From positions 1 to 28,649 of IMG/VR virus record IMGVR_UViG_3300044655_002223: DNA of 28,649 nt; one strand, written 5' to 3'. A program made the position numbers and the translations under genes. The stretch's first letter is position 1; each line of letters starts with the position of its first letter. The notes under the pieces were generated by a model. That model was not told where the DNA came from. It worked only from the letters and a program-made list of their open reading frames with translations, and searched no databases. Positions 13,988 to 28,649 of the stretch are shown in pieces. The stretch comes from a virus.

Positions 13988-14785
13988 GTGGCCAGAGTTT
14001 TAGATTACATATCATTCAATAATAATGTTAATGAGGCAGAAACTCCTTATTACCACGAGTCTCTTAATCCTGTATTCTGGGAAAAAAAGAAGGATCGTAA
14101 AGGTGATATAAAATGGGTTTTCGATCAGAGGGTGAGAAGAAAGCTAGTAAGGATAGCCAAGGAATTCTACACTAAATATGAGGACATATTAGGAGAAAGA
14201 GCAATTAAAGATATCGTATTAACAGGATCTCTTGCTAATTTCAACTACACTAAATACTCTGATCTTGATGTTCATATTCTAGTAAATCTAGATGGCATCG
14301 ACGATGAAAATCCCAAGATATTAAAATCAGCTATAGATGGGGTTAGATTCATATGGAACCTCAGACATGATATAAAGATTAGAAATTATGATATGGAGGT
14401 ATACCTTCAGGATGATGACGAGGAGCATAACTCTTCCGCTGTATTTTCACTATTAGATAATGAATGGATTAAGAAACCTGTTTATGATCTTCCTGAGATT
14501 GATGACCAGCAGGTAAATAAAAAATACGAATCCATAGTTTCAGATATAGAAAACATGCACACAAGGCTCATGATATCAGGAAACATGCCAAGCAATGCAA
14601 GACAGCTCCATAAAAGATGTGAGAAAATAAAGAAAAAAATATTTAAGATGAGAAGAGAATCTCTAACTAAAGGAGGAGAGATGTCAGTGGGCAATCTTGT
14701 CTTTAAAAAACTGAGGAACGAGGGATATATAAAGCAGTTAATAGATATTATTTCTAAATCCTACGACAAAATTTACACGGAATAA
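13988..14785 (+). CDS. Nucleotidyltransferase with capsid-targeting-like N-terminus
   Basis: A 265-residue protein of the polymerase-beta-like nucleotidyltransferase fold. LTGSLANFNYTKYSDLDVHI (78-97) supplies the G-S signature and the D92-x-D94 metal ligands, and E137 in DMEVYL is a suitable third acid. A conserved-looking SLLDNEWIKKP follows, and the C-terminal third is basic and helical. Such enzymes transfer nucleotides to RNA, proteins or small molecules; the substrate is unknown. The start is GTG because no in-frame ATG occurs before residue 136. The first 16 residues end in NNNVNE before AET, resembling the peptide that T4 gp21 removes from internal head proteins. It opens the head gene block. 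If the tag is real, this enzyme is carried in the virion, as T4 Alt is. Confidence 0.78.
   Translation: MARVLDYISFNNNVNEAETPYYHESLNPVFWEKKKDRKGDIKWVFDQRVRRKLVRIAKEFYTKYEDILGERAIKDIVLTGSLANFNYTKYSDLDVHILVNLDGIDDENPKILKSAIDGVRFIWNLRHDIKIRNYDMEVYLQDDDEEHNSSAVFSLLDNEWIKKPVYDLPEIDDQQVNKKYESIVSDIENMHTRLMISGNMPSNARQLHKRCEKIKKKIFKMRRESLTKGGEMSVGNLVFKKLRNEGYIKQLIDIISKSYDKIYTE
14724..14731 (+). promoter_or_regulatory. Candidate late promoter (GATATATA) before the 905-residue gene
   Basis: GATATATA in context GGGATATATAAAG, inside the 3' end of the nucleotidyltransferase gene and 61 bases before the next ATG. It lies in coding sequence, so it is weaker than the intergenic copies. Confidence 0.3.
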
Positions 14786-14792
14786 TTTAATT

Positions 14793-17510
14793 ATGATAAT
14801 TATTTTACCAAAGAACACAGAATATAATCTAGGGAACGATTTTCCCTTGATTACCATACCTATGACCATGGAGAATGCTGAATCAGCATCGTTTGAAGAT
14901 TTCCAGTGGTGGTCGTATTCTAAGGATTTTAGAAATTGGTTGAAAGCAAATCCAAGACAATGGGTAGCAGACTCCGAGGATCTCTCTAAATATTCAGGTA
15001 GCTTAACTGAATACCTAAGAGAGTGTATGGAAAGATATGATGAGGAGTCCTTACTATCAGAATCTAGCGTTATATCTTTTGAAGATTTTGAAAGGATGCT
15101 CTCAGAAAATGAAAATCTTTTCGAGGATGATGGGGATTCGGGAGCAGCTAGTGTGGACGACCAAGCTACTGTAAAAGAAGCGGTAAAATTTCACTTTGCA
15201 TACAATAAATTAAAAAGTGATGGAACTTTAAAAGAATCTGCTACTGCTGATCAAATAGCTACAGGCGACGATAAAGCGGTATTTTTAGTTTTAGAAGATC
15301 CTGAGAGTAAGGAAAATCTTTTAGAGACTTTAAAAGCATTTAGAATGAAAGGATTCACCGATACCGCAGCTGAATCTAAATTTACATTAATAAATGTTAC
15401 TGAGATGGTTCCTGGTGGACCGGTTGCAGAAGATGACTCCCCTGAAAATGTCGTGGGTAAGATAGTTCAGGATGCTACAATTTTAGCAACAACTGCTGGT
15501 GCGGGGGTTCTTATCTTTGGTGCTCTTAAAGTAGCTGGTGGAGCTTTAGGAACACAGGCTTTGTTAAAAACAATCAGGGGATTCTCCCCTAGTGCAGCTG
15601 CTAAAGCGGCTTCCACCGCAGCTAAACCTGGCCTTTGGAGTAAAGCAGGAAAATTTACAGCAGGTAAACTCAAGAGTATCTGGGGTATAGCCAAAGAAAT
15701 GGCTACACTTAAAAATACAAGGATAGCAGCTCAGGGTGCAGCAAGAGGTTTCAGAGGAGCTAAAGCCGCTTTCATGCTAGGAAAACAGGGAGTAGGTGGA
15801 GCGATTAAAGCTTTCGGTAAAGGATTCGCTAGAGGATTTTCTAAAGCAGGAGGTAAAGCAATACCTTTCGTAGGTGAGGTACTTATGGTTATCGATGCTG
15901 TGGGTTCTACTTGGAACTGGTTTAGTTCCAATCAGGCACCTAGATATGGCGAGGTTGATAGTTTTGCGCACAACTCATTAGATCCTGCATCAATACCGGT
16001 TGGAGTTCCTATCACTATATGCTGGTCACAGCCTGCAGGTGGATGGGGTGGAGCTGCAGTAAGCTTTTTCTTCAGTAATGAAACTAGAACTACATGCGAG
16101 CTTGTAAAGATTGGAGTTAGAGATAACTATTCAATATTCATATTAACTCAGGTTAACTCTGCAGAGGTTCAGAAACAGCTAGCATCTCACGATCTAGTTT
16201 TGATTGCTTTGGATAACAGCGATAAAGTTAATGAGCAACCAGAGGATGCGGGAAATATACTTACAAAAGCTGCTAAATACGTTCAGAGAACATTTGACAA
16301 CGAGGATATGGACTTTAAAATGTCTTTTGTTGATGGAATCGATAAGATTGCAGCATTATTCAATTTCCAGGGTATGTGCGATTGGAACACATTCATATCG
16401 GAATACAATAACGCATCAGACCAGTTAATAATAGCTGACGAAAACGCTCCTGCAACATATCAGTTTTATTATACAGATTCAGAGGATAATATTATTAACG
16501 TAGCGGGAAGACTATTAACCAGCGAAGAATTAGCTACTACTTCAGATACGGATATAGAAAAGATATTTTACCCTATAGAAGGAGGTGAGGATGTCTTCGG
16601 TAAAGTTAAGAAAAGAGGGGAAGGTGAAGTAGCAGAAGAATCCGAGGGATTTGATTCTTATGGACTAAACATATTGATGGAATCATCCGGAGTTATAACT
16701 AGCTTTTCTGATTTCAATTCATCTTTAACAAAGGCTAATTTGGGAATTTTTGAGGCTGGAGGATCTTCTGGAAATCCCGATGAGGGATCAGGAGACCCAG
16801 ATTCACAGGGAGTAGGCGCAAGTACTGCTGATCTTAGCCCAGATGATAAAATGGAGCCTGCAAAGGTAGCAATCTATAAGGTAACCGATAGAGAATATGC
16901 AAATCCAGAGCTTAGAAAATATAAAGCAGGAGTATTTACCCAATTTATTCTTACGGAGGAATCTTTTGATGCTAAAGCTAATGAATCGATTGGTGTAGAC
17001 GTTAATACTACAGGGGAGGACCTAGAAGATCCTAGAAGAGGGGTTTATGCTTATAAGAGAAAAGAAGATACACCGAAACCTCCGGTTGATCCTGATAAGG
17101 ATAAGGATAAAGATAAAGATAAGGAAGAAGACGTAAAAAGGGACCAACAGCCTGACGTCGAAAAAACGGAGGATGACTACTTCTTAAAAGTTAATCCTAA
17201 GGATGTAGAGATTAAAGATAAAAGAAATTCTACAGTTATTAGAGATAAGAGCGTAGAAGGTGGTATAAACATCTTAGACGAGTTCTTAGATGCTAAGAAA
17301 AAAGAGATATTAGGTATCTCAGATTGGAAAGCAATTACTTTCGCTAAATCGATGTTAGATGCTAAAGGAGAAGTTACTGAAGTTAAATTAAAGAACAGAT
17401 TTGCTCCGTTTGGTGATAAGATAAGAAAATATAGAGTTACTGATGGCGAATCATTCGAGATAGCTAAGAAATTTGCTGAAGATGTTGAAGCCAGAATAAA
17501 ATATGAATAA
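14793..17510 (+). CDS. Large head-block protein with Gly/Ala-rich membrane-like core
   Basis: A 905-residue protein not recognised as a known family. The N-terminal 220 residues are acidic, with several hydrophobic-x-E motifs (LLSESS near 88-92, MLSENE near 102-107). Residues 222-378 are rich in Gly and Ala, and partly cationic. They contain two hydrophobic stretches (about 229-255 and 354-377) joined by repeated small-residue helices such as GAARGFRGAKAAF and GVGGAIKAFGKGFARGF. Such glycine-zipper segments can insert into membranes. A beta-rich middle follows, then an acidic linker with a Asp-Lys repeat coded at 17094-17125, then a helical basic C-terminus. It sits directly before the prohead protease, where T4 keeps its small core genes 67 and 68. 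A packaged or ejected protein is plausible; the function is unproven. Confidence 0.8.
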   Translation: MIIILPKNTEYNLGNDFPLITIPMTMENAESASFEDFQWWSYSKDFRNWLKANPRQWVADSEDLSKYSGSLTEYLRECMERYDEESLLSESSVISFEDFERMLSENENLFEDDGDSGAASVDDQATVKEAVKFHFAYNKLKSDGTLKESATADQIATGDDKAVFLVLEDPESKENLLETLKAFRMKGFTDTAAESKFTLINVTEMVPGGPVAEDDSPENVVGKIVQDATILATTAGAGVLIFGALKVAGGALGTQALLKTIRGFSPSAAAKAASTAAKPGLWSKAGKFTAGKLKSIWGIAKEMATLKNTRIAAQGAARGFRGAKAAFMLGKQGVGGAIKAFGKGFARGFSKAGGKAIPFVGEVLMVIDAVGSTWNWFSSNQAPRYGEVDSFAHNSLDPASIPVGVPITICWSQPAGGWGGAAVSFFFSNETRTTCELVKIGVRDNYSIFILTQVNSAEVQKQLASHDLVLIALDNSDKVNEQPEDAGNILTKAAKYVQRTFDNEDMDFKMSFVDGIDKIAALFNFQGMCDWNTFISEYNNASDQLIIADENAPATYQFYYTDSEDNIINVAGRLLTSEELATTSDTDIEKIFYPIEGGEDVFGKVKKRGEGEVAEESEGFDSYGLNILMESSGVITSFSDFNSSLTKANLGIFEAGGSSGNPDEGSGDPDSQGVGASTADLSPDDKMEPAKVAIYKVTDREYANPELRKYKAGVFTQFILTEESFDAKANESIGVDVNTTGEDLEDPRRGVYAYKRKEDTPKPPVDPDKDKDKDKDKEEDVKRDQQPDVEKTEDDYFLKVNPKDVEIKDKRNSTVIRDKSVEGGINILDEFLDAKKKEILGISDWKAITFAKSMLDAKGEVTEVKLKNRFAPFGDKIRKYRVTDGESFEIAKKFAEDVEARIKYE

Positions 17511-17545
17511 TCGCAGAAATGATAAAAAATATCTGAACGATTGTT

Positions 17546-17578: not shown

Positions 17579-19609
17579 ATGCCAACAACTCAAAGACTTA
17601 ATGAAGAATTGGTTTTCATTCTTGAAAGACAAGAACTTTTCCTTGAATCCAAAAAGGAGGGATCTAGCGATTATGTTCTAGAGGGTATTGCTGCTGTTTT
17701 CGGTAAAGAAAATAACAATAATCGAATCTACGAGGAAAAAGAATATCTACCTCACTTGGATTACCTTAGAGATAAGATCAAGCAGAGAAGATTAGTTGGT
17801 GAATTAGACCACCCTGAAAAATTCGACGTTTCACTTAAGAACATTTCTCATATCATAGAGAAGCTAGATTACGATAAGGGAAATAGACAACTTAAAATTA
17901 AAGTTAGATTATTGGACACCCCTGCTGGAAAAATAGCTAAGAATTTAGTTGATGCTGGAGTTCCTTTATCTATATCTTCTAGAGCTGCTGGATCAGTTGG
18001 TGGAGATAAGAAAGTACAGATTAAAAAGATATTCACTTACGATCTAGTTGCAGATCCTGGTTTTCAAGACGCACAGTTAGAAAGAGTATATGAGAGTGCA
18101 GGTTTCACTTATGAAGAATTCTTCGCAAAGAGAAATAACACTATCCTAAACACACTAACTTGCTTAAATGAATCTCTAGGTCTGGAAAACGAATCCCCAG
18201 TGAAGATATATAGAGTTGAAAACAACGAAGAATTTAATAAACTCGTGAAAACAGACAAAAATAAAACATCCCTTATGGAGAATAATGAATTTGTTACCGC
18301 TGATGAATTGAATCAATATTCCATCTTTCTTAAGAAGGAAATGGATTCGATGAAAAATGAGCTGACAACTATTAGACAACAAAGAAATTCTATTACTGAA
18401 TCTAATAGCGATTATTCTAAATCTTTGGTTAGCCAACTTGAGAATAGAGTAGCTAAGTTAGAGAAATATTCAGAATATCTTGCTGAGAATTTAGATAACG
18501 CAATTAAATACGGAGAATATCTTGCTGAGAATTTAGATCAGAGCATTAATTACAGTAAGTATTTAGCTGAGAACTTAGATAAGAATATTTCTTATTCTAA
18601 ATATCTTTCTGAAAACGTAGATAAAAACATTTCTTATTCTAAATATCTTGCTGAGAACGTAGATAAGTCAATCAGCTATACTGAGTATGTAGCAGAGAAC
18701 GTAGATAGAAATATCGAATACTCTAAATACTTAGCTGAAAAATTAGACCACTCTATCCAATATTCTGAATATTTAGCTGAAAACGTTGATAACAACATCG
18801 CATACAGCGAGCATATTGCAGAAAATGTTAATAGCGGAATTGCTTATACCGAGTATGTAGCTGAAAAACTAAACGACGGTATTGAATACAGTGAGTATCT
18901 TGCTGAGAATTTGAGTAAAACTATTTCTTATACTGACTATTTAGCAGAAAATCTAAATAGAGGTTTAGATTACTCGGAGTACTTAGCTGAAAAAGTTAAA
19001 AGAGGTATTGATTACACAGAATACATCGCAGAAAGCATTAATGGCTCAGCATCTGGATTAGATATGGGTACATCTTCTGTTCCTCACGTAGGCAACTTAA
19101 GAGAAAATGTTGATGTTAGCTATCATGCAGGACTAAACGAGTCTGGATTTGCTGGAAGCTACGACAATCTTACTTCAAGAATAGATAATTTGATTGAATC
19201 GGTTAAAACACAAAAAACCGAGTCAAATATAAACGAGGCTGCTTCTAGATTTCAGTCTCAAGCCAATACACAAAAGGCTCAAACAGGTGTTCTAAATGAA
19301 TCAATTAACGAAGGAGCAACAGGTCTTAAATTTATTGATGAAATGCCAGAGGAATACACTTCAATTTGGGAGTCTCTAAACGAAGGGCATAAGCAATCAA
19401 TCATTGCTCAAAGCCACTTCTACAGATTAGATACTGCATACCAAATTAAGAATTTCTGGTCTACTCGTCAATTAGGAGCTAAAACTTTCGGAGTTCAAAA
19501 ATTGGACGAGAACGAGAATCTAAATGAAAATAACGCTACGCAAGGCTACTCAAGTGATTATATGAATTACATAGCTTCAGCGTTAGAACAAAAATTTCAA
19601 AAAAGGTAA
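17579..19609 (+). CDS. 21: Prohead protease fused to a repeat-rich scaffold-like half (gp21-gp22-like)
   Basis: A 676-residue protein. Residues 1-185 are a T4 gp21-type serine protease: VLEGIAAVFG, NNNRIYEEKEYL (T4 NRNKRLYPKRIL), VGELDHPE with catalytic H78 (T4 GELNHP), and LSISSRAAGSV with nucleophile S134 (T4 VSSRGLGS). Residues 190-295 are helical. Residues 296-491 are fourteen repeats of 14 residues. The C-terminal part (492-676) carries many hydrophobic-N-E sites (GLNESG, NINEAA, VLNESINEGA, SLNEGH) and ends with a helical region, including HFYRLDTAYQIKNFWSTRQL. T4 encodes protease and scaffold separately (gp21 about 212, gp22 about 269 residues), so this looks like a fusion. An internal ATG at 18275 could also produce the scaffold part alone. 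MPTTQRLNE at the N-terminus may itself be a cleavage tag. Confidence 0.9.
   Translation: MPTTQRLNEELVFILERQELFLESKKEGSSDYVLEGIAAVFGKENNNNRIYEEKEYLPHLDYLRDKIKQRRLVGELDHPEKFDVSLKNISHIIEKLDYDKGNRQLKIKVRLLDTPAGKIAKNLVDAGVPLSISSRAAGSVGGDKKVQIKKIFTYDLVADPGFQDAQLERVYESAGFTYEEFFAKRNNTILNTLTCLNESLGLENESPVKIYRVENNEEFNKLVKTDKNKTSLMENNEFVTADELNQYSIFLKKEMDSMKNELTTIRQQRNSITESNSDYSKSLVSQLENRVAKLEKYSEYLAENLDNAIKYGEYLAENLDQSINYSKYLAENLDKNISYSKYLSENVDKNISYSKYLAENVDKSISYTEYVAENVDRNIEYSKYLAEKLDHSIQYSEYLAENVDNNIAYSEHIAENVNSGIAYTEYVAEKLNDGIEYSEYLAENLSKTISYTDYLAENLNRGLDYSEYLAEKVKRGIDYTEYIAESINGSASGLDMGTSSVPHVGNLRENVDVSYHAGLNESGFAGSYDNLTSRIDNLIESVKTQKTESNINEAASRFQSQANTQKAQTGVLNESINEGATGLKFIDEMPEEYTSIWESLNEGHKQSIIAQSHFYRLDTAYQIKNFWSTRQLGAKTFGVQKLDENENLNENNATQGYSSDYMNYIASALEQKFQKR
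18205..18212 (+). promoter_or_regulatory. Possible internal GATATATA promoter in the protease-scaffold gene
   Basis: GATATATAGAG within the protease-scaffold coding region, 62 bases before the in-frame ATG at 18275. The sequence and distance resemble the copies before the 905-residue gene and the portal. It could be coincidence, because the codons for K-I-Y-R produce it naturally. Confidence 0.3.
18275..19609 (+). CDS. 22: Possible nested scaffold product from an internal start
   Basis: Methionine 233 of the protease-scaffold protein is encoded by an ATG preceded by ACAAAAATAAAACATCCCTT, an A-rich context very like the leader of the gp55-like gene. It lies beyond the protease domain and before the repeats, so a separate 444-residue scaffold protein (gp22-like) could be made without the protease, as lambda does with C and Nu3. 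This start is a hypothesis; the full-length frame is uninterrupted. Confidence 0.35.
   Translation: MENNEFVTADELNQYSIFLKKEMDSMKNELTTIRQQRNSITESNSDYSKSLVSQLENRVAKLEKYSEYLAENLDNAIKYGEYLAENLDQSINYSKYLAENLDKNISYSKYLSENVDKNISYSKYLAENVDKSISYTEYVAENVDRNIEYSKYLAEKLDHSIQYSEYLAENVDNNIAYSEHIAENVNSGIAYTEYVAEKLNDGIEYSEYLAENLSKTISYTDYLAENLNRGLDYSEYLAEKVKRGIDYTEYIAESINGSASGLDMGTSSVPHVGNLRENVDVSYHAGLNESGFAGSYDNLTSRIDNLIESVKTQKTESNINEAASRFQSQANTQKAQTGVLNESINEGATGLKFIDEMPEEYTSIWESLNEGHKQSIIAQSHFYRLDTAYQIKNFWSTRQLGAKTFGVQKLDENENLNENNATQGYSSDYMNYIASALEQKFQKR
18464..19051 (+). repeat. Fourteen tandem 42-base coding repeats (14-residue units)
   Basis: Fourteen in-register units of 42 bases encode residues 296-491. 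The consensus is x-Y-S-E-Y-L-A-E-N-L/V-D-x-x-I. Tyr at position 2 and the Glu at position 8 are kept in all fourteen units; the motif at positions 6-8 reads LAE in nine, VAE in two, IAE in two and LSE in one. Synonymous codons vary between units, so this is not a fresh DNA duplication. At 14 residues a unit makes about four helical turns, so the units can stack along one long helix. Confidence 0.95.
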
Positions 19610-19627: not shown

Positions 19628-21367
19628 ATGAAACTGATTAACGAACAAGAAATCTATGATACCTGGTCTCCGATTATCGAGAGCAAAGCTGGTATCACAG
19701 AAGAAAGCAAAAAAGGTTGGTTGACTAAATACTGTCACTACCATTCATTAAACGAATCTGCTGGAGCTTATAACACTCTTGGTGTTGTAAACGGTATGGG
19801 TAACGTTGCCCCACCAGCATTCCCTGGTGCTACTATTGGTGGTACTTCATTCTCAACAGGCGCTAACGCTGGTTTCTACAACACAGCTTGGCAAGGATCT
19901 GGAGATAAATTCCCTTCACTTCTTCCATTGGCTATTCAGGTAGCTGCGAAGACTGTAGGTTTTGATATCGTTCCAGTTATTCCTATGTCTGGTCCTACTG
20001 GTATCTTGTCTTACTTAGACTACGTATACGCAGGTGGTAAAACTAACGCTGCTACTGCTGCTACATCTGGAGACAGTTTAGCAAAAGCTCCAGCTATGAT
20101 TAAATTCCCAGTTTATCAAACTGCTTTAGGTACTGGTGTTACTGGTGCTACTGCAGGTACATTTACTGTTGGACAAAATTACGCTCTTACTAACGGTGGT
20201 ACAATAAACTTATTGTTTGTTGGTCTATCAAGAATTGACGGTTTCCCTATATTCGAGATCAATCCTTCTACAGTTGGTGGTGTAACTGGTATAACTGATG
20301 GCTATAACGTAGCTGGTATCATCAACGGTACTCCTGCTCAAGTAGGTTCTAGCGGATTCTATACTGGTGCTACTTCAGTTAACTACTTAGCTCAGTTAGT
20401 TAAAGGTCTAGAAGATCACATCCAAGGTTTCTCCGGTGCTGGTTTCAATAACACCGACGCTTGGCAAGGTCCTTACGTAGATGGTACTAAGACTTACAAC
20501 CCGATGTTAAGAGGTGTTGGTGAGTCTACTTACTACAACTCAATGGGTCTATCGACTTTCACTAAGTTCGTAGAAGCTGAAACTTTCCAAGTAGCTGCTT
20601 CTGTTACAACTGAGCAAATCCAAGACCTTAACAAACAATTCGGTATCGACGTTATCTCAATGATCGAGAACGCATTGGTTAATGAGGTATCTCAGTCTAT
20701 TAACAAGCACATCCTTTCTAGAGCATTCGCTTTAGGTTGGTCTAACCACATCCAGTTCAACAATGTTGAAAACCAAAACTTGAACTTGAACTTGGTAATC
20801 GGTGGTGGTTCTGGTACTACATCAGCTTACGTTAAGAAAGACGATACTACTGGAACTATGGTTATCCCTGGTGGTCCTGCTTCAGGAGGTTACGAGAACT
20901 TGTCAACTTTACAAAGAAGACTATTCTCAAGAATCCTTGCAGCTGCAAACGTAGTAGCTAACAGAGGTCGTAGAGGTCCTGCTAACTTCATCGTTACTAA
21001 CGCTGCAGTAGCAAGTGCACTTCAAGATATCTCTCAGTTCACTTTCGCTCCATTCTCTAACACGTTAACTCAAAATAACGGTACTTTATACCCTGTAGGT
21101 TCACTTGCTGGTATGACCGTTTACGTAGATCAGAACATGAGATACGACGATACACGTGTATGTATTGGTAGAAAAGGTGGTGACGATGAGCCAGGATTGA
21201 AATTCATGCCTTACATGATGGCTGAGTCAATTCAGACTATCTCTGAAGGTACAATGTCACCTAAAATCGCGGTTAAATCAAGATACGCTCTAGTTGAAGC
21301 TGGTTTCTTACCAGAGACTATGTACTTGACATTCTATGTTAACGTACCTGCTGGAGGTTTAGCTTAA
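19628..21367 (+). CDS. 23: Major capsid protein (gp23-like)
   Basis: A 579-residue HK97-fold capsid protein of the T4 type. Shared regions include TTEQIQDLNKQFGIDVISMI (T4 TAELAQDLKAVHGMDADAEL), RGRRGPANFIVTN (T4 RGRGNFIIAS), and VGSLAGMTVYVDQN (T4 VLGGKYRVYIDQ). The C-terminal part is MSPKIAVKSRYALVEAGF. The N-terminus (INEQEIYDTWSPIIE) parallels T4 KAELLNKWKPLLE, and the sequence SLNE-SAGAYN places the likely maturation cut after E43, where T4 cuts after E65 in FLTE-AEIGG. The middle is Gly/Thr-rich and may hold a surface insertion. Codons are distinctive: Gly is mostly GGT, and AAC, TAC and TTC are frequent, unlike its neighbours. The gene follows the protease-scaffold gene by 18 bases and is closed by a strong terminator. 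Confidence 0.95.
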   Translation: MKLINEQEIYDTWSPIIESKAGITEESKKGWLTKYCHYHSLNESAGAYNTLGVVNGMGNVAPPAFPGATIGGTSFSTGANAGFYNTAWQGSGDKFPSLLPLAIQVAAKTVGFDIVPVIPMSGPTGILSYLDYVYAGGKTNAATAATSGDSLAKAPAMIKFPVYQTALGTGVTGATAGTFTVGQNYALTNGGTINLLFVGLSRIDGFPIFEINPSTVGGVTGITDGYNVAGIINGTPAQVGSSGFYTGATSVNYLAQLVKGLEDHIQGFSGAGFNNTDAWQGPYVDGTKTYNPMLRGVGESTYYNSMGLSTFTKFVEAETFQVAASVTTEQIQDLNKQFGIDVISMIENALVNEVSQSINKHILSRAFALGWSNHIQFNNVENQNLNLNLVIGGGSGTTSAYVKKDDTTGTMVIPGGPASGGYENLSTLQRRLFSRILAAANVVANRGRRGPANFIVTNAAVASALQDISQFTFAPFSNTLTQNNGTLYPVGSLAGMTVYVDQNMRYDDTRVCIGRKGGDDEPGLKFMPYMMAESIQTISEGTMSPKIAVKSRYALVEAGFLPETMYLTFYVNVPAGGLA

Positions 21368-21420: not shown

Positions 21421-21430
21421 GTGTAGATGG

Positions 21431-21438
21431 GATATATA
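21431..21438 (+). promoter_or_regulatory. Candidate late promoter (GATATATA) restarting transcription after the capsid terminator
   Basis: GATATATA in context GGGATATATAGAGAG, eleven bases after the terminator and 24 bases before the ATG at 21463. It lies downstream of the other possible start at 21427, which argues for 21463 as the real start. Confidence 0.5.
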
Positions 21439-21462
21439 GAGAGTAGAAAAGTATTACACCAT

Positions 21463-22626
21463 ATGAAAAATATACCATCATTTAAAGAATTTAATCAGTA
21501 TTCGGACTATATCGAAACAACTAACGAAAGCACGTTAAACGAGCTTAGAAATATAGAAGGTGCAGATCCTATACATTCGGTTAACGAGGGCCACGTAATG
21601 AACGCAGCCAAAAATTTTCTTTCCAAGTTTTTTCTAGGTCCTCTTTCTAGAGTAGGAGCTATAGATCAGGCTAGAAAAATAATTCTTGAATTGGAATTAG
21701 ATCTTATAGAAAAAAGAAACGATTTTGAGCTTGAGATGGAAGAGATAGAGAATAAAATCGATGAGTTAATAAAGATAAACGATAAAGAAAAAATAGTTTC
21801 TTTAGAAAGAGAAAGAGAGCTAAAAGCTAAACAAATGGATGCTTATGTTAAAGCACAAAAACTTAAGCTTGAAAAATCAAAAGATGTTGCAAGAAAAATA
21901 GTAGACGGTAATGCTAGAAGAAAAGAATACTTAGAAGCTGGGTATGCTGAGGATGAAATAGCTATAGCTGAACTTGAATATAAGTTAGCTTCCCAGAGAA
22001 TCGAAGATAAATCCGAACTTGGCGAATACGAAGCAAAAGTTAAGAAGGCTAAAGAAGAAGCAGATGCTAAGGCAGCTCAAATGAAAGATAATGCAGAAAA
22101 GGATGCAGGGAAGAATGCAGGAAAAACTGGATCTTCCGAAGATGAACCAGAGGACCTATCTTTAGATCCTCAGGAAGAGAAGAAAAAAGTTGCTGGTAGA
22201 AAATATAAGGATATTATAACCAGAAAAAATGAGCTAACAAAGGAGATTGCCGATCTTAGATCTGATTTGGAGAGGAAATTAAGTAAATTCAAATCGAGAG
22301 TTTCTGGAAATGCTGCTGCGGGTAAGAAGGAATCTAAATATGCTGAATCGATTAAGATTGAGTTATTAGAGATTTGTTCAGCTCTTGATTCGAAAATAAA
22401 TCTTCTTACGACCCTTAGAAATCTAGGTAAAACCGAGAGGGAAATAGATAGAAAATTAGGTAAAGAATCAGAATTTACCCAACTAGCAGATAAGATCAAT
22501 CAGAGTATCTTGGATGGTGAAGATGCAAATTCAGGGACAAAGAAAATTATTTCTGATTTATTTGGATCGTCCCAAGTTACCCCTCAATCTATAGAAGAGG
22601 CTATGAGAAAAATAACCGAAAATTAA
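21463..22626 (+). CDS. Candidate internal head/core protein, coiled coil, tagged N-terminus
   Basis: A 387-residue protein from the ATG at 21463; a frame-extending ATG at 21427 would give 399 residues but lies before the GATATATA box. The N-terminus MKNIPSFKEFNQYSDY strongly resembles T4 capsid-targeting peptides such as MKTYQEFIAE. Hydrophobic-x-E sites follow in TNESTLNE and SVNEGH. After a short hydrophobic AAKNFLSKFFLGPLSRV, most of the protein is a Lys/Glu-rich coiled coil (about residues 60-330) with a Gly/Lys/Asp linker in the middle. This composition fits a prohead core or internal head protein that is cut on maturation. No enzyme motif is visible. It leads a run of four similar genes with gaps of about ten bases or overlaps. 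Confidence 0.8.
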   Translation: MKNIPSFKEFNQYSDYIETTNESTLNELRNIEGADPIHSVNEGHVMNAAKNFLSKFFLGPLSRVGAIDQARKIILELELDLIEKRNDFELEMEEIENKIDELIKINDKEKIVSLERERELKAKQMDAYVKAQKLKLEKSKDVARKIVDGNARRKEYLEAGYAEDEIAIAELEYKLASQRIEDKSELGEYEAKVKKAKEEADAKAAQMKDNAEKDAGKNAGKTGSSEDEPEDLSLDPQEEKKKVAGRKYKDIITRKNELTKEIADLRSDLERKLSKFKSRVSGNAAAGKKESKYAESIKIELLEICSALDSKINLLTTLRNLGKTEREIDRKLGKESEFTQLADKINQSILDGEDANSGTKKIISDLFGSSQVTPQSIEEAMRKITEN

Positions 22627-22636
22627 TTCTCTTAAT

Positions 22637-23527
22637 ATGACATTACTTAAATTTAAAGATTGGGATAACCTGAACGAAGCTAATGTTTTTGATAAAATCA
22701 AAACATGGTTTAGCACTAATTTTGGTGGAGTTCTTTCAAGGATCGAGGATCTTTTAAGCGAATATAGATCGGCAGAAACTGATTACGTAGATGAATGGGG
22801 GAAGATTGTCGAAGAAATTGACAAACTGGAACTTCAGAGAGCTCAAACTAAATCCGATCCTGCGGAGGTTAAAAAAATAGACCGATACATTCAAAGAAAT
22901 CGTCAGTTAATTGAGGATATGAAAAAAGCTCATGTTAAAAAGATAGATCACTTGATGGTGAAGGTCAAAAAAGAAATAGCAGATAGCAGAAAGCTTCAAA
23001 GCTATTGGGAAGTTAATAAAACAAGGATTGACGCCGAGGTTGCTGATGATATGCTAAAAAGATCTAAACAGCTGGCTAATGTCGATCTTTCTGGATCTCT
23101 TTATTCTAAATACAAAGAAGCTGTTATGAAAGCTAGAGAGAAGGATCTCGAATTTAAAGAAAAATACGGGGATCTTTTGGCTGGACAGAAAAAACCACAA
23201 GCTACTCCGTCTTCTAAGACGAGCAAGAGTGGTTTCAGTGAAGCTGCATTGGATCTTTACATTTCAATGTCTCTAAGTGATTTTACTAAGGAAGTGGAGG
23301 ATTTAGATTCAAAGGAAAAGAAAGAGGTAACTTCATACCTTCTTAAACAAAGGAATGATCTGTATGTCCAGATGGAAATGGAGAAAGAATCAGCTAATTT
23401 AATGTTTACCAATGATGAGATCAAAAGAGATGAACTAGGTAAAATGCTTAAGGAAATCAGAGAAAAATATATGGATCAAATTAGAGATCTTAGATCAAAA
23501 ATAACTATATCTAGGAAAAATGCTTAG
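22637..23527 (+). CDS. Candidate internal head/core protein, coiled coil, tagged N-terminus
   Basis: A 296-residue protein, mostly Lys/Glu-rich helix. The start MTLLKFKDWDNLNEANVF has the aromatic/basic lead and an LNE-A junction after residue 14. Next comes KIKTWFSTNFGGVLSRI, which shares the plan F..K.F.G.LSR with the previous gene just after its tag, so the two may be distant paralogs. A Pro/Ser/Lys linker (about 185-200) splits the coiled coil. A second helical part begins SGFSEAALDLYISMSL. No enzyme motif is visible. The final codons overlap the next gene by eight bases. Confidence 0.8.
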   Translation: MTLLKFKDWDNLNEANVFDKIKTWFSTNFGGVLSRIEDLLSEYRSAETDYVDEWGKIVEEIDKLELQRAQTKSDPAEVKKIDRYIQRNRQLIEDMKKAHVKKIDHLMVKVKKEIADSRKLQSYWEVNKTRIDAEVADDMLKRSKQLANVDLSGSLYSKYKEAVMKAREKDLEFKEKYGDLLAGQKKPQATPSSKTSKSGFSEAALDLYISMSLSDFTKEVEDLDSKEKKEVTSYLLKQRNDLYVQMEMEKESANLMFTNDEIKRDELGKMLKEIREKYMDQIRDLRSKITISRKNA

Positions 23528-23777
23528 TTTTTATGATTTCATGAACGAGGACGATAGCGAAAAAACTAAAGTTCAACAGATAAAGTTAGATCTTGCTAAA
23601 AAGTTTGATGCAATAGGGATTGCTAAAAATGAAAAAAAGCCAGACGATATCAATTCAGAGATTAAGAGTATAGATAAGCAAGCAGCTCTTTATTTGGAGA
23701 TTTCCAACATGATGAAATTATTATCTGCGGAAATTAAGAAAGCTGGTACCACTAAAAAATCAACCAATATATACTAA
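23520..23777 (+). CDS. Small tagged coiled-coil protein, possible core protein
   Basis: An 85-residue protein starting inside the stop region of the previous gene. The first residues, MLSFYDFMNEDDSEK, form the most compact tag in the set, with a likely cut after MNE at residue 10. The remainder is one Lys/Asp/Glu-rich helix. Size, charge and place resemble the small T4 core proteins gp67 and gp68, but I see no direct sequence match. Confidence 0.75.
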   Translation: MLSFYDFMNEDDSEKTKVQQIKLDLAKKFDAIGIAKNEKKPDDINSEIKSIDKQAALYLEISNMMKLLSAEIKKAGTTKKSTNIY

Positions 23778-23785
23778 AAGAATAT

Positions 23786-26296
23786 ATGAAAAATCCTTAT
23801 TTAAATAATCTAGTAGCTAGCAGAATATTCGAAGGTCACTATACAAAACTATTCGAAAATGAGAAAGTTGATTCTCTAGCAAGCAAGCTAGCTGACAATG
23901 CTCTTAATGTTTTTAAGGTATTAACTTTCGATCTTGCTCCTAAAAGGGATAGAAACCCTGATGTTATTAGGGTTAAGTTATCAGATATTGCTAATTCGGA
24001 TAGCGTTAAACAAATGACTGCTAAGCTACTTGATTATGCCGACGATAATGAATTGGTTAATGCTAAATACGCTGAATCTAAAAGACTCTATCTTGAGTGT
24101 TTAAAAAAGCTATGTGATGCTTTAGAAAGAATAGCGGAGATAAGCAAGGAAAAAGGAGAGACGATTATTAAAGGATTTAAGCTATCCCCTACCAAATTAC
24201 AGAACATCATAGATAATATAGCAAAACAAGCAGAGGAAGAAACTAAGCTTAAAGCTGCTAATGAATCTGATCTATATGATTACTATGAGGATATTAACGA
24301 ATCTATTTTAGTTGGGTACAGAGGCAGAATAGAAAAAATCAAGAAGCTATTAACCAACCTTATTACTTCCGCTGAAGGAAAGGACCAGAAAAATGGATAC
24401 GGAAGGGACTGGAAAAGAACTTTTATAGACCTTGACGAGAAAAGAAAAGTATTAGATATAACTAGATCGGGATTCGGTGAAAAGGACAAGAAAACTCTAG
24501 ATGACCTAGAAAAGCAGGTAACTAAATACCAAACGGAATTTAATGATGCCCTTTTGCAGGCTGCTAATAGATCTCTACAATCACTAGAAGACGACGAGGA
24601 GGTTTATAAACTCTATTCCGATGTAACTGAGCTTGCAACCGAGGCTTTGGATCTACTTACTAGAGCAAAATCCCAGTATGAAATAGCATACAAAGAAATC
24701 TTAGATCAGCACGAAGTTGAGGAGAGCACATTCCTTAAATCTCTATTCCCACTAAAAAGAGGAGACAAAGATACTAATCCTAAAATAAAAGGAAGCAATT
24801 TGATATATTCCATTCAACTTGCTTTATGTCACGGTATCCCATCTGCTGATAAGCTTATTAAATCTAAAAAAGGACCTAATGGTATTTATGGACCGGCAAC
24901 TACTGCTGTGGTAGCCAGTCTTCAAAAATTATCGGGGAATAAAAATACAAACGGTCAGCTTGACAAGGCTCTTCTAGATTCAATTTTAGCCTCTGATTGG
25001 GTTCAAGTAAAAGACAAGAAAGCGATCGAGAGTGCTTTAGAAATAATTAGATCAAAGACCAACGAGTCCGAATTCTATGGGTATCAGGATAACGTGATGA
25101 GCATGGATTATTTTCTATCGATTAATGAAAGCAAGATCGTTATAAACAATTCAGAATTTGAGAAGGAGCTTACTTCTCAATATAAAACGGCTTCCGCTGC
25201 TCCTAGCACGGAGGGATCTTCTAAAGGGTCTTCATCTTCTAAAAAAAATGCTGGCTCTAGTGTTAAGGAATTAGCTAAAAAACTTAGAACCGTTTATGGT
25301 ATGAAAATAGAATCTGACGATTTTGTTAAGACCGACGGGACACTGAAATCATCATATACCCCCGGGTTTGTAAGTGCATGGACAAAAGCAATAGATAAAG
25401 TAGGGGAATCTGCTAAAGAATACGGATACTTCTTTTATGATGGCGGACTATATCCTATTAAAAGTAAATACTCTTCTCTGAAAAGACCAAGCAATTGGGA
25501 AAAATGGTCTGTTGTCAGACAAGCAAAATCATTTAATTCTGAGGATGCCTCGGACTTTCTATCTGATTATATGAAATCATGGAAAAGTTTTGGTAAGGTT
25601 AAAGGGGAGGAAAGATACCAGGCAATCAAATCTATTATCAAAAAGAGAGGGGATTCCGATTTAGCAACAGCATATGAATTGATGGACTCTTCAATTCTAA
25701 ATAAAAGCATACCCTATATTGACTTTGATGATCTAAAAGGAAATATCACCAAGGCATTTAATATAGCCCTACAGAAGGGAGAAAAATCCCCAGATCTAGG
25801 AGCTGAAGATTTTTGTGCAGTCAACGATTTCCTTATTATGATTTCTAGTGCAGTTTCTTTCGATGGCAAGAAATTTATAAGCTGTGTTAAATGGATACAT
25901 GACCATGTTCTGGGAGAGGTTACAGCTAAGAGAATAGCTAATGATTCTATTATATTCCTTAAGACTGGAGGTTTCTCCGGTGTAGACGAGATTCTTTCCT
26001 ATAATAGTACAGGTATAATTCTTAGAGACGTAACCACCAAATCTGGAATAAAATCTTTAATCGACAGAGTAAGAAAATTAATTCTAAAGGATCCTACTAA
26101 GGACTTACCCGGATTTAAGTATCTTATAGACATGGATGATGACGACGATCTAGGAAAAAGTACTCTTTCTTTGAATTGTAAATACATTGCGTGTGAGATT
26201 TATCCAATAGTAAATTCTCACGTAAAAAGGATGAATGCAAATTCCTTCGAAAAAGTTCCGCAGTCTAAATTCGGCAAGTGCGTAGATATTAGCTAA
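23786..26296 (+). CDS. Multidomain candidate head polyprotein with PG-binding-like domain
   Basis: An 836-residue protein. The N-terminus (MKNPYLNNLVASRIFEGHYTKLFENEK) has two hydrophobic-x-E sites. Residues 30-320 are mainly coiled coil, interrupted by ANE-S (160) and INE-S (172). Residues 336-401 resemble a peptidoglycan-binding type 1 domain: GPNGIYGPATTAVVASLQK followed by NGQLDKALLDSIL, the same order as DGxxGPxT..A...FQ then DG.....T...L. TNE-S (427) and INE-S (448) follow, the second preceded by MSMDYFLSINE, which reads like another targeting tag inside the protein. A Ser/Lys linker (475-490) leads to a folded-looking C-terminal part of about 340 residues without a known motif. The pattern suggests a polyprotein cut by the prohead protease into separate packaged domains. 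Confidence 0.8.
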   Translation: MKNPYLNNLVASRIFEGHYTKLFENEKVDSLASKLADNALNVFKVLTFDLAPKRDRNPDVIRVKLSDIANSDSVKQMTAKLLDYADDNELVNAKYAESKRLYLECLKKLCDALERIAEISKEKGETIIKGFKLSPTKLQNIIDNIAKQAEEETKLKAANESDLYDYYEDINESILVGYRGRIEKIKKLLTNLITSAEGKDQKNGYGRDWKRTFIDLDEKRKVLDITRSGFGEKDKKTLDDLEKQVTKYQTEFNDALLQAANRSLQSLEDDEEVYKLYSDVTELATEALDLLTRAKSQYEIAYKEILDQHEVEESTFLKSLFPLKRGDKDTNPKIKGSNLIYSIQLALCHGIPSADKLIKSKKGPNGIYGPATTAVVASLQKLSGNKNTNGQLDKALLDSILASDWVQVKDKKAIESALEIIRSKTNESEFYGYQDNVMSMDYFLSINESKIVINNSEFEKELTSQYKTASAAPSTEGSSKGSSSSKKNAGSSVKELAKKLRTVYGMKIESDDFVKTDGTLKSSYTPGFVSAWTKAIDKVGESAKEYGYFFYDGGLYPIKSKYSSLKRPSNWEKWSVVRQAKSFNSEDASDFLSDYMKSWKSFGKVKGEERYQAIKSIIKKRGDSDLATAYELMDSSILNKSIPYIDFDDLKGNITKAFNIALQKGEKSPDLGAEDFCAVNDFLIMISSAVSFDGKKFISCVKWIHDHVLGEVTAKRIANDSIIFLKTGGFSGVDEILSYNSTGIILRDVTTKSGIKSLIDRVRKLILKDPTKDLPGFKYLIDMDDDDDLGKSTLSLNCKYIACEIYPIVNSHVKRMNANSFEKVPQSKFGKCVDIS

Positions 26297-26328: not shown

Positions 26329-26332
26329 CTGT

Positions 26333-26362: not shown

Positions 26363-26367
26363 TTTTT

Positions 26368-26937
26368 ATGATTTATGTATTTGAGGGTGCTAGAAATAGT
26401 GGTAAAACCTATTTAAGCAATTACGTATCTAAAAAATATAACATCCAGCGTTTTCAATTTAACTTTGGGGGTTACTTTAATCTTCTTGGATTAAAAAGTA
26501 GTGACAATAGGGAAGCTCATTCGTTTTCTATGGGAAAGGAATTAATGCTTCTTCAATTAGCTAGAGAGTTTTCTTTTGAATTTCCCGACTTTATTCACGA
26601 TAGAGGGATAGTCACAGTGTTAGCCTGGGGATTATATGAGAATAGGATCACTAAGGACGATCTCATAAACCAGATTGACTACATCGAAAAAAATAATCTT
26701 CTGGACGGAATTTATATAATTAGGATTAAGGGTAAAAACCCGAATCGTGCAGATAGAGATAAAGATCAATGGGACTTTGCCGATTCAGATAACGGCGAAT
26801 CTGAATGCTTTGAAATGGTTTTTAGTGAATTAGAAAAAAGAAAGATATTCAAGGTTTTTACCGTCAATAACACATTTGATTCGGATGGACTAAGAGAGAT
26901 TGATAACCTATTTAATTTTATAAATACAACAGAATAA
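26368..26937 (+). CDS. P-loop kinase, probably a nucleotide or nucleoside kinase
   Basis: A 189-residue protein starting at MIYVFEGARNSGKTYL; a TTG at 26326 in frame would overlap the promoter and is rejected. Walker A is GARNSGKT (7-14). FIHDRGIVTVLAW (about 88-100) carries the D-R pair typical of thymidylate and deoxynucleoside kinases, where it contacts the nucleotide. A lid-like KGKNPNRADRDKDQW follows, rich in Arg and Lys. The fold and length fit the dTMP kinase/deoxynucleoside kinase group, but the exact substrate cannot be read. Its own promoter suggests a separate unit; the next gene begins two bases after its stop. Confidence 0.75.
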   Translation: MIYVFEGARNSGKTYLSNYVSKKYNIQRFQFNFGGYFNLLGLKSSDNREAHSFSMGKELMLLQLAREFSFEFPDFIHDRGIVTVLAWGLYENRITKDDLINQIDYIEKNNLLDGIYIIRIKGKNPNRADRDKDQWDFADSDNGESECFEMVFSELEKRKIFKVFTVNNTFDSDGLREIDNLFNFINTTE

Positions 26938-26938: not shown

Positions 26939-28348
26939 ATGTGTGGAATAATTTTAACTACAGGGGCAAGTAAAACCCCAGAAATACTTGACTCGATAAA
27001 GCACAGAGGAATAGAAAGAAGTGAAGTAGATTTTAACGGGGTAACCCTTTGTCATCATCGATTACCAATACAGACTTCAGATGGTGATGAATGGAGTCAA
27101 CCAATTGAGATATCCGATGGAATATACCTCATGTTCAATGGTGAGATATTTAATTATGATCGGGATAGATTTGGATCAGACACTGAGTACTTAATAAATC
27201 TATTCTCTCCATATAAAGGTGCATCCAATCTGGAATTTTTCTGTGCAATGTACATTCCACATATAGTTAAATGGGATGGATTTTGGGCCATAGTAATATA
27301 TGACGTTAAAACCGGAGATGTTATTTACTTCACGGATCCTCTGGGTAAAAAGTCTCTATATCGTAACGAGTTAGGAGAGATCTGCTCGGAGATAAAGGGA
27401 TTGTACACACAAAATTCTAATATAGATGAATCGTATATTAGCTCAGTAAGAAAATGGGGATATAATAAGGACGAAAGAACACCCTATACTAATATCAAAA
27501 GGGTTCTTCCTAATAACATTTATATGCACAATATAAGCTCACCTTTATTCAGTAAAGTTTATAACGGGTACTATAGAATATGGGAAACCCCAATTCCGGA
27601 GCTAAAAGAAGCCTCATACGAGGATCACATGGAATGGCTATGGGACAAAATGGTCGAGAGTGTAGAGAACAGATTGGTTTCTAAAGATTACCCGATATCT
27701 TTACTTGTATCGGGTGGACTGGATTCTGCAATAATAGCTGGACTTCTCAAAGGAATGGATGCTGATGTTAAATGGTTTAGTATAGAGAATGGAGAAACCC
27801 AGTTTGTTAGTGATTTAGAAGCTCATTTAGACGTTAAAACTAATTTTCTAGACTATTCTATGGATAGCGAAAAAAACGCTCTTATATACGCTAAATGGAA
27901 CGAAAGCCCAATCGATCTGGGATCTGTAATACCCCAGTATCATCTTTTCGAGGCTATTAGAAAAAATAGCGACTATAGGATAGTTCTTAGCGGGGATGGA
28001 TCAGATGAACTATTTGGCGGATATTCAAGAATTCATGAATACGACTCACAGAAATCTGACATATTCGAGGAACTTACTTTCTACCACCTTCCTAGACTCG
28101 ACAAGATGTCAATGGCCCACACACTGGAGCTTAGAAACCCTTTTCTTAATCTGGATATAGTTAGATTCGCCATGCACCTTCCTTTAGAATGGAGAACCGA
28201 TAAAAAAATCCTAAAAGACACGTTTGGTCCTATGCTTCCTGATAGTATAGTCAACAGAAAAAAAGAGGCTCTTAAAAATCCAGAGATAAAACAGGATAGA
28301 ATAGCATATAGATATAAAGCGATAGAATTATTTCTCTCAATAGCTTAG
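26939..28348 (+). CDS. asnB: Asparagine-synthetase-like glutamine amidotransferase (AsnB family)
   Basis: A 469-residue protein with the two-domain AsnB plan. The N-terminal class II glutaminase has the nucleophile C2 (MCGI), HRG at 22-24, RLPI at 41-44, and NGEIFN at 67-72. The synthetase domain has the PP-loop SGGLDSA (258-264), SGDGSDELFGGY (351-362), and DKMSMAHTLELRNPFL. It would use glutamine and ATP to amidate a carboxylate, aspartate in the best-known enzymes. It is shorter than E. coli AsnB (554 residues), mainly at the C-terminus, though the motifs are intact. It is unusual cargo for a phage. The role might be amino-acid supply late in infection, or amidation of another molecule such as a cell-surface sugar or nucleobase precursor. 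Confidence 0.9.
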   Translation: MCGIILTTGASKTPEILDSIKHRGIERSEVDFNGVTLCHHRLPIQTSDGDEWSQPIEISDGIYLMFNGEIFNYDRDRFGSDTEYLINLFSPYKGASNLEFFCAMYIPHIVKWDGFWAIVIYDVKTGDVIYFTDPLGKKSLYRNELGEICSEIKGLYTQNSNIDESYISSVRKWGYNKDERTPYTNIKRVLPNNIYMHNISSPLFSKVYNGYYRIWETPIPELKEASYEDHMEWLWDKMVESVENRLVSKDYPISLLVSGGLDSAIIAGLLKGMDADVKWFSIENGETQFVSDLEAHLDVKTNFLDYSMDSEKNALIYAKWNESPIDLGSVIPQYHLFEAIRKNSDYRIVLSGDGSDELFGGYSRIHEYDSQKSDIFEELTFYHLPRLDKMSMAHTLELRNPFLNLDIVRFAMHLPLEWRTDKKILKDTFGPMLPDSIVNRKKEALKNPEIKQDRIAYRYKAIELFLSIA

Positions 28349-28370
28349 ATTAAAATAGAAATCTTAGTTG

Positions 28371-28378
28371 GATATATA
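28371..28378 (+). promoter_or_regulatory. Candidate late promoter (GATATATA) before the last gene
   Basis: Intergenic GATATATA in context TTGGATATATACTAGAAA, 19 bases before the ATG. A near copy (AATATATACTAAAAG, 23766-23780) lies before the gene at 23786. Confidence 0.5.
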
Positions 28379-28397
28379 CTAGAAATAAAATTCCGAA

Positions 28398-28649
28398 ATG
28401 ACTAAAATAGTTAAGCTAGATGAATTTGAACACGTAAACGAGGAGTTATCGATGAGTGAAATACTATTCGGTAAAGTTCTTCCTTTTATGGGTGAGGGAT
28501 TTATTAAAACACTAAAGCAGAAGATAGCTGCTATCCTAATGGAGAAAATAGGGATTTTGGAAGATTCTAAATTTTCTATTATCATACAGGAGCTTGTTGA
28601 TGCAATTCCAGTAAAAGATATACCTGGATTAATGACAGGGGAAAAGGCT
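28398..28649 (+). CDS. Candidate tagged internal head protein, 3'-truncated by the window edge
   Basis: An ATG at 28398 opens a frame that stays open for 84 codons to the window end. The N-terminus MTKIVKLDEFEHVNEELSMS fits the tag seen across the head block (basic/aromatic lead ending in VNE at residue 15). The remaining visible part is amphipathic helix, with FGKVLPFMGEGFIKTLKQKI recalling the short hydrophobic stretch after the tags of the genes at 21463 and 22637. A GATATATA box precedes it. The protein beyond the edge is unknown. Confidence 0.7.
   Translation, partial: MTKIVKLDEFEHVNEELSMSEILFGKVLPFMGEGFIKTLKQKIAAILMEKIGILEDSKFSIIIQELVDAIPVKDIPGLMTGEKA

Follow-up and report, generated by a model that had tools for sequence, protein, structure and literature searches.

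A shared N-terminal peptide resembling T4 capsid targeting sequences in the head-assembly cluster of a large environmental phage and in the genomes of its relatives

RESULTS

The window (the whole stretch of DNA analyzed, 28,649 nt, from IMGVR_UViG_3300044655_002223) is occupied by a cluster of T4-type head-assembly genes from a large environmental phage, and all of the features described here lie on its + strand. Both a gp21-type protease and a gp23-type capsid protein are encoded within it, the former as a predicted prohead protease fused to a scaffold (17579..19609; N-terminal LNE9 at 17579-17605) and the latter as a major capsid protein of the Gp23 family (19628..21367; PF07068, 143 bits). 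The capsid gene is adjoined by the gene for a core-like protein (21427..22626) whose tag is weak here and whose start is possibly 21463, the longest ATG ORF at this locus beginning at 21427. Beyond it lie a core-like protein with the tag MTLLKFKDWDNLNE|A (22637..23527; tag at 22637-22678), a small protein with the tag MLSFYDFMNE|D (23520..23777; tag at 23520-23549), and a large protein (23786..26296) with no N-terminal tag and two internal tag-like INE|S sites, at residues 170-173 (24293-24304) and 446-449 (25121-25132). A nucleotidyltransferase-fold protein (13988..14785), the ORF of which starts with GTG, has the tag MARVLDYISFNNNVNE|A at 13988-14035, and a gene truncated by the end of the record (28398..28649), its ORF extending past that end, has the tag MTKIVKLDEFEHVNE|E at 28398-28442. 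The product of 11773..12252, which begins with MKYIRSINE|F, is a doubtful member. The 905-residue product of 14793 was considered as a member and rejected, as it lacks a tag that could be used and conservation is absent at its candidate sites.

An earlier note on this DNA had named seven products (11773, 13988, 17579, 21463, 22637, 23520, and 28398) whose short N-terminal stretches end in hydrophobic-N-E, and all seven N-termini are present in the sequence as read. Using a regex, hydrophobic-N-E was found within the first ~30 residues of 5/24 complete window ORFs, compared with a control rate of 3.6% among 4102 internal-Met pseudo-N-termini (window enrichment, p=0.0014). Residue composition around the N-terminal Glu was noisy, and a profile trained on the relatives was used instead. 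Five of the seven named tags held up, with scores of 4.9 to 12.2 (13988, 8.5; 17579, 7.8; 22637, 4.9; 23520, 12.2; 28398, 7.7), and the other two, 21463 (-0.2) and 11773 (-1.1), received no support; all eight untagged products (6824, 8188, 9144, 9646, 12289, 13224, 26326, and 26939) scored below -2. When every window family was removed from profile training, 13988 scored 6.4, 23520 scored 9.4, 22637 scored 3.6, and the IIE|S site of the major capsid protein scored 7.1; 17579 was absent among the scores >2 in this left-out scoring.

Among orthologs, the N-terminal hydrophobic-N-E was retained in 54/62 for 22637, 53/61 for 17579, 42/54 for 11773, 25/57 for 13988, 17/39 for 28398, 13/31 for 23520, and 10/64 for 21463, compared with 0/28 for 9646 and 0/56 for 13224, which served as controls; orthologs of five other control genes were absent from the compared loci. 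The start MKNxPSFxxF is often kept in 21463 orthologs, but LIE or YIE stands in place of the named LNE; at 11773, the Glu is followed by F, Y, or D, and some orthologs have IYE at the site. The P1 Glu is invariant in the aligned 13988 orthologs (30/30), as is E9 in those of 17579 (31/31). At the internal sites of the 23786 product, hydrophobic-x-E is retained in 54/57 orthologs for the first and 46/57 for the second.

The 17579 product matches Peptidase_S77 (PF03420) at 32 bits against a cut-off of 27, and phrog_207 with an E value of 9.5e-39. Its scaffold part holds an array (18467..19036, residues 297-486) of 14 tandem repeats of 14 residues, mostly YSxYLAE|N, with the same geometry as the tag and with DNA tandem repeats of period 42 across part of it, and, toward its C-terminus, clustered candidate cut sites of the form [LI]NE|[SAG] (19133..19387, residues 519-603). 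The protease-scaffold shows the strongest enrichment in [LIVM]NE[ASGN] of any protein in 8/11 ORF sets. Structure modeling of the scaffold gave low confidence (mean pLDDT, 47.5), and the match per lineage between tags and scaffold repeats in P3 Leu versus Ile is only suggestive (p=0.068). The capsid protein has a candidate maturation site, LNE|S (19748..19759, residues 41-44), in which SLNESA is invariant in 75/75 sequences, and the capsid N-terminus of PAU lies at most one residue from the predicted LME|N cut. The 13988 product matches NTP_transf_2 (24.1 bits; cut-off, 21), and a fold search with its model gave weak aminoglycoside-nucleotidyltransferase matches (E value, 4.5e-4; TM, 0.24). 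The earlier reader had overlooked the site in the capsid protein, the repeats of the scaffold, and how far the tag extends across genomes.

Scanning start regions for the pattern, as the earlier note had proposed, revealed an excess both in the window and in the whole genomes of relatives. Relatives of 250-430 kb each encode 19-29 proteins with IKxFxxF[LIV]NE|[SA], and a 735 kb phage encodes 51 among 1010, where 1-3 are expected. At a score of 5, nine ORF sets gave 148 tagged proteins in 108 families, chance matches among them; the same short N-terminal peptide, mostly 9-20 residues long and of the [LIV]NE type, thus sits on otherwise unrelated proteins. An excess of profile matches over pseudo-N-termini was observed in the training genomes, also with test families left out, and in the held-out LR756500, LR756501, and PAU, the tagged products of PAU including gp142, gp143, gp153, and gp154. 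Lak-B5 and PTm1 showed no excess by this profile; N-terminal [LIVMF]NE was nonetheless in excess in Lak-B5 (44 versus 21.9). In the 50 kb of the 229 kb S-SCSM1 genome that was scored, NMNAT alone stands out, and the test was not significant.

The tagged enzymes in relatives include adenylate kinase, in which the tag is an extension absent from solved kinases, PPK2, poly(A) polymerase, and RimK, and several tagged proteins match the wall-active families CHAP, SLT, OmpA, and PG_binding_1. Alignment of 72 tagged proteins gave the consensus MKxIxxFxxFLNE and nothing further in common; since these proteins were picked by the profile itself, the consensus illustrates the motif but does not test it. 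PADLOC analysis of the 72 returned four families, each represented once, without any pattern. The tag of one Pfam-positive radical SAM carrier (L196) looks poor by eye, and this carrier is likely to be a false positive. Either gp23 or gp21 is present in 18/21 other tag-bearing records, compared with 1/8, and both are missing in 3/21.

The profile was trained on neither T4 nor S-CREM2, and both served as external tests. Among 258 T4 ORFs, IPII and IPIII rank 1 and 2, and with P2 masked, 6/10 known substrates fall within the best 14, a depth that is an arbitrary list length and not a chosen threshold; IPI and Alt lie outside the best 14. Profile columns -6, -3, -2, and 0 correspond to T4 IPIII residues 4, 7, 8, and 10, and mutational mapping of the IPIII tag (Mullaney and Black 1996, as given in section 2.6 of PMC9026906) assigns targeting to residues 4 and 7 and processing to residues 8 and 10. 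For S-CREM2 (222 ORFs), 8 of the top 10 with P2 masked, and 7 of the top 10 unmasked, are virion proteins in the published proteome. Tagged nonstructural proteins occur among them, and gp156, a homolog of the 13988 product, is in the published virion list; many S-CREM2 virion proteins are without a tag, and the authors of that study cautioned that such virion proteins might copurify.

DISCUSSION

We interpret the shared N-termini as T4-type capsid targeting sequences, which the prohead protease would cut while the cargo is retained inside the head together with the DNA, and we place the probability of this reading at about 85%. Strong support for the T4-like reading, put forward in the earlier note, comes from the T4 test, the mapped T4 residues, the S-CREM2 virion proteome, the site in the capsid protein, and the co-occurrence with gp23 and gp21. 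The large complement that the note had suggested for the window is seen, as tagged proteins, in the whole genomes of relatives, with a small part of it carried by the window. The tagged protease-scaffold and the genes adjacent to it are prohead-core-like, and because most tagged window products adjoin the capsid gene and resemble prohead core, only some of them are plausible delivered cargo. For the window's phage, we infer a T4-type capsid targeting system, comprising packaging, cutting, and delivery, with an unusually large predicted cargo.

In such a system, the aromatics at -6 and -3 would dock the tagged protein onto the prohead scaffold, and the shell would then close around a core of scaffold and docked proteins. 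The gp21-type protease, fused to the scaffold (17579), would cleave after [LIV]-x-E, freeing the cargo, processing the capsid protein to its mature form at LNE|S, and breaking up the scaffold, and the freed cargo would remain in the head alongside the DNA. Its ejection into the host is a further predicted step, less certain than packaging and cutting. We suggest, tentatively and with the odds somewhat against it, that the tag is a detached single scaffold repeat, so that cargo is recruited by imitation of a single unit and freed through an identical cut, and that the delivered payload in giant phages amounts to some 20 to 50+ different proteins, comprising nucleotide and energy enzymes (adenylate kinase, polyphosphate kinase 2, and nucleotidyltransferases) and wall-cutting enzymes.

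It is unlikely that these are instead cleavage sites of head core or scaffold proteins that are digested and lost, with little or no delivered cargo; although the tagged 17579, 22637, and 23520 lie around the capsid gene and such sites abound in the scaffold, relatives tag recognizable enzymes (adenylate kinase, PPK2, poly(A) polymerase, and RimK) and tagged nonstructural proteins are present in S-CREM2 virions. It is far less likely that the motif has nothing to do with the head and is another sorting or localization signal (for the tail, the membrane, or a site of replication) or a feature of translation start. The wall-active matches could suit a role in the tail or in lysis, but the T4 and S-CREM2 tests, the site common to the capsid protein, and the varied codons and upstream DNA argue against this. 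A shared DNA element, such as a promoter or ribosome site, was rejected, since the upstream DNA and codons differ, by eye, among 17 LR756500 tags; as tag codons and upstream DNA vary, selection appears to act on the protein. That hydrophobic-N-E N-termini are common and were merely selected by the reader is the least probable explanation: although 3.6% of control N-termini match the regex and two of the seven named members do not hold up, an excess was observed in every clade genome tested and in held-out genomes, the external tests agree, and chance for the whole set is rejected by the internal-Met pseudo-N-termini, the left-out families, and the swapped-residue DNA pattern used as a control, whereas 11773 and 21463 individually may be chance matches.

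If these are capsid targeting sequences, one label on dozens of unrelated proteins could let a single virus carry a large ready-made protein set. Most giant-phage proteins are without a known role, and a label for travel in the head would make hypothetical genes testable as early-infection factors; the natural tags and cargo could also be of use for loading proteins into phage heads. The resemblance of tag to scaffold suggests a structural reason for why the tag works. The invariance of E9 (31/31) lends evolutionary support to the proposal, an open one in PMC9026906, that the N-terminus of gp21 serves as a targeting peptide in its own right.

Several known systems share parts of this arrangement. 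According to PMC10052503 and PMC5694885, the prohead protease of SPN3US and phiKZ cleaves after Glu and there are internal ejection proteins; the SPN3US propeptides are mostly 111-254 residues long with the motif A-x-E, whereas the tags here are short and [LIV]-N-E, being neither long propeptides nor of the A-x-E type. In P1, an N-terminal signal likewise directs DarB into the head, but this concerns one protein, with the signal within 30 residues, in a phage apparently without a separate scaffold (PMC9024508). The "prohead core scaffolding protein and protease" of PTm1 is also one polypeptide (AP019524 annotation) and rich in [LIV]NE, but the regex that picks out the scaffold repeats here finds no tag-like tandem repeats in it. 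NMNAT-like, kinase, and SAM hydrolase proteins have been detected in cyanophage virions; the term "capsid targeting" does not occur in those reports (PMC10665884, PMC9602691), and their passages on cargo, including section 18 of the former, do not name the tag, which several of these cargo enzymes bear. There is likewise a resemblance to IPI-IPIII of T4, which, in the account of the tag in section 2.6 of PMC9026906, share the short N-terminal peptide with aromatics at -6 and -3, an aliphatic residue at -2, and Glu at the cut followed by a small residue, in a genome that also encodes a gp21-type protease and a gp23-type capsid protein. Compared with T4, P2 here is usually Asn and not Ala, the tags are 9 to about 20 residues long, each genome has about 20 to 50 predicted carriers as opposed to three IPs and Alt, and protease and scaffold form a single fusion in which the scaffold bears tag-like repeats.

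N-terminal tags in large relatives of the window phage

The earlier note read hydrophobic-N-E starts on window products as T4-like capsid targeting and proposed a scan of start regions. The 28,649-base window is an entire IMG/VR virus record, and its gene set is T4-type: two portal genes, head closure, a DNA-end-protector match, clamp loader, exonuclease, prohead protease, and a Gp23-type capsid protein. The portal-protein genes are adjacent (3472-5145 and 5168-6778), each with a phrog_213 match, and a 469-residue product within the head cluster (26939-28348; phrog_16728 match) is by eye a candidate asparagine-synthase-type amidotransferase. Capsid proteins sharing 80-90% identity with that of the window occur in IMG/VR records as long as 434 kb, and more distant capsid-protein relatives occur in the huge phages LR756500 and LR756501, Prevotella Lak phages, Tenacibaculum PTm1, and Sphingomonas PAU. 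Because these relatives lie in large genomes, they were taken as whole records, both close (G001, 250 kb; G002, 271 kb; G006, 373 kb; G007, 430 kb) and distant (LR756500, 462 kb; LR756501, 735 kb; Lak-B5, 544 kb; PTm1, 225 kb; PAU, 219 kb), with T4 and cyanophage S-CREM2 as outside test genomes. A simple script called genes by taking the longest ORFs that do not overlap, which leaves some starts wrong.

Among predicted proteins of all four close genomes, hydrophobic-N-E was about 3 to 4 times commoner at residues 10-19 than past residue 60, and one tag recurs at the N-termini of many differing proteins, for example as MENLKSFGEFINE/A, METLKYFNQFLNE/R, and MKNLKKFEGFINE/W (slash, predicted cut). 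A position profile centred on the Glu was trained on 62 families (consensus IKxFxxF[LIV]NE/[SA]), and expected counts were taken from internal-Met pseudo-N-termini. In the training genomes G001, G002, G006, and G007, respectively, 22, 17, 22, and 28 proteins reached score 7 versus 1.1, 0.4, 1.9, and 0.5 expected, and 24, 19, 23, and 29 reached score 6 versus 1.0 to 2.8; when all families of the test genome were left out of training, score-7 counts were 11 versus 2.2, 10 versus 0.9, 14 versus 0.5, and 14 versus 1.5. At score 7 an excess also appeared in the held-out LR756500 (18/667 versus 0.0), PAU (6/289 versus 0.7), and LR756501 (43/1010 versus 2.0; 51 versus 2.0 at score 6); no profile excess appeared at score 7 in Lak-B5 (1 versus 0.3) or PTm1 (1 versus 0.8). 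N-terminal [LIVMF]NE was nonetheless in excess in Lak-B5 (44 versus 21.9). Tagged genes clustered beyond shuffled labels in five of the six genomes tested.

A degenerate DNA tag pattern matched at least 120 IMG/VR loci, and of the 148 matches within the loci listed, 125 fell at the first ATG of an ORF; when Asn and Glu changed places in the pattern as a control, a complete IMG/VR scan found 31 matches, 3 of them at an ORF's first ATG. Matches to the gp23 or gp21 family were present in 18 of 21 tag-bearing records (those of at least 100 kb among the 80 matches listed) versus 1 of 8 control-scan records (p=5e-4); as three or four of the 21 resemble near copies of one phage and 4/8 control records are under 100 kb, this co-occurrence is supporting evidence only.

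Correspondence with T4 targeting and predicted prohead cleavage

In the ten-residue tag of the T4 internal protein IPIII, residues 4 and 7 set targeting and residues 8 and 10 set cutting (PMC9026906). Counted back from the cut, these residues occupy -6, -3, -2, and 0; together with -1 (Asn) and +1, those columns rank among the strongest of the profile. Built without any T4 sequence, the profile ranked IPII and IPIII first and second among 258 ORFs, with the cut at MKTYQEFIAE/A. With P2, the residue before the Glu, masked, the 14 best-ranked of the 258 ORFs included 6 of 10 known substrates of the gp21 protease (IPII, IPIII, gp23, gp68, gp22, and gp24; hypergeometric p=1.5e-6). The gp23 site chosen lies early and may not be the maturation cut, and neither IPI nor Alt was among these 14.

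SLNE/SA was found in 75/75 capsid-protein sequences of the clade. Mature PAU capsid protein comprises 520 of 585 residues (56.2 kDa) in a table based on N-terminal sequencing (PMC5646251); our predicted cut after LME64 would leave 521 residues (56.1 kDa), differing from the published form by one residue. The protein with the greatest [LIVM]NE[ASGN] excess is the protease-scaffold polypeptide in 8 of 11 ORF sets, the window among them; it ranks fifth in LR756500, PAU's top protein is gp155, adjoining the capsid gene, and no T4 protein has two such sites. The Glu of the protease's own N-terminal LNE9 is invariant (31/31 sequences), and T4 gp21 has LIE-9, suggested as possibly targeting the enzyme (PMC9026906). 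The prohead protease region recurs as a short second copy, in frames of 132-181 residues, in LR756500 (154840-155238), LR756501 (11437-11784), and the records behind loci L317, L335, L347, and L353. A separate 836-residue window protein (23786-26296) has two conserved tag-like internal sites; cleavage there could yield three fragments in the prohead.

Residues 297-486 of the protease-scaffold product starting at 17579 hold 14 repeats, mostly YSxYLAE/N, at an exact 14-residue spacing and with the geometry of the tag (aromatic -6, aromatic -3, aliphatic -2, Glu 0). This polypeptide was top for [FYW]..[FYWH][LIVM].E in the ORF sets of the window, G001, G002, G006, G007, and LR756501 (p 2e-10 to 7e-18), as it was in that of LR756500, where it has only three sites (p=0.003); no such array was found in the PTm1, PAU, Lak-B5, T4, or S-CREM2 sets. 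Across lineages, the match in preferred residues of tags and repeats is only suggestive (p=0.068). We infer that the tag acts as a mimic of the scaffold repeat. In LR756501, seven FVKYLIE-like units spaced 58-61 residues apart also occur in a protein of 1691 residues (21458-26533), and another of 207 residues carries three scaffold-type repeats (619760-620383).

Tagged proteins and virion proteomes

Pfam was scanned in detail for tagged proteins only, 60 from outside the window (40 of 72 family representatives and 20 from LR756501), and 12 matched a family over the cut-off: DUF2201, RimK ATP-grasp, PG_binding_1, PolyA_pol, Radical_SAM, CHAP, SLT, LRR, adenylate kinase, OmpA, PPK2, and zinc ribbon. 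Four further wall-related matches fell below it (CHAP, Tlde1/YkuD, Hydrolase_2, and Glucosaminidase). PHROGs, run on all 72 representatives, matched 39 families; among the 25 matches listed, eight are annotated endolysin and two tRNA nucleotidyltransferase. Solved enzymes align with the phage adenylate kinase only from residue 17-25 on (best 60 of 95 matches), and the tag is therefore an added extension. Residues 1-19 of an ortholog (relative's locus L002) of the nucleotidyltransferase-fold product starting at 13988 are modelled at pLDDT <50, and across 30/30 aligned orthologs the P1 Glu is invariant and P2 variable. In LR756501 (735 kb; L274, 511-2145), the homolog of this product makes up the C-terminal portion of a 544-residue protein, which opens with a tag-like stretch of its own, MLKYNSFIKE. 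Within the profile set, a family of eight includes four tagged proteins of LR756500 (13446, 180972, 313382, and 331856); of these, 180972 was scanned and is a leucine-rich-repeat protein.

Mass spectrometry of S-CREM2 virions listed 52 proteins (PMC10665884), which we ranked with 170 others (222 ORFs, after leaving out three called ORFs that overlap virion genes). Virion proteins took 7 of the top 10 places with the unmasked profile (p=1.8e-3) and 8 with P2 masked (p=1.8e-4), seven of these eight being non-structural (p=2.3e-5). They include a cytidylyltransferase (MKNFSSFLTE/A), a Cas9-like protein (...LRFASFMAE/A), an APH-like kinase (MKRFDAFLTE/E), and a SAM hydrolase (MKDFDSFLEE/F); the S-CREM2 capsid protein has LLTE/A, whose P2 Thr recurs in three of the phage's tags. 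Many of the 52 show no tag, and the authors warn that purification might fail to separate highly expressed proteins from virions (PMC10665884). The 13988 product is homologous to S-CREM2 gp156 (32% identical across 230 aligned positions; E 9e-35), which is on the virion list with six unique peptides (PMC10665884) and itself has no clear tag. For S-SCSM1 the test covered 50 kb with 71 genes, 15 of them marked virion; NMNAT (MKSFLQFLKE/A) alone stood out, and the result was not significant. Tagged PAU gp142 and gp154 are annotated "internal capsid proteins" in the GenBank record. Small proteins repeating the capsid-protein arm (NAGFY...GSGDKF) are encoded in G001 (118565-119035), G002 (127690-128139), and G006 (238008-238457); their cyanophage counterparts, S-CREM2 gp160 and S-SCSM1 gp97, in which the arm reads GFTGxxAxxGPxAGYDPLM, are both on virion lists.

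Relation to known tags

Within the open-access papers searched, by title, abstract, or passages (subscription papers lay outside this scope), we found no report of the tag in huge phages, of its scale, or of tag-like scaffold repeats. The tag is of a known kind: T4 tags were described in 1996, and T4-like phages have been suggested to add proteins by such tags (PMC9026906).
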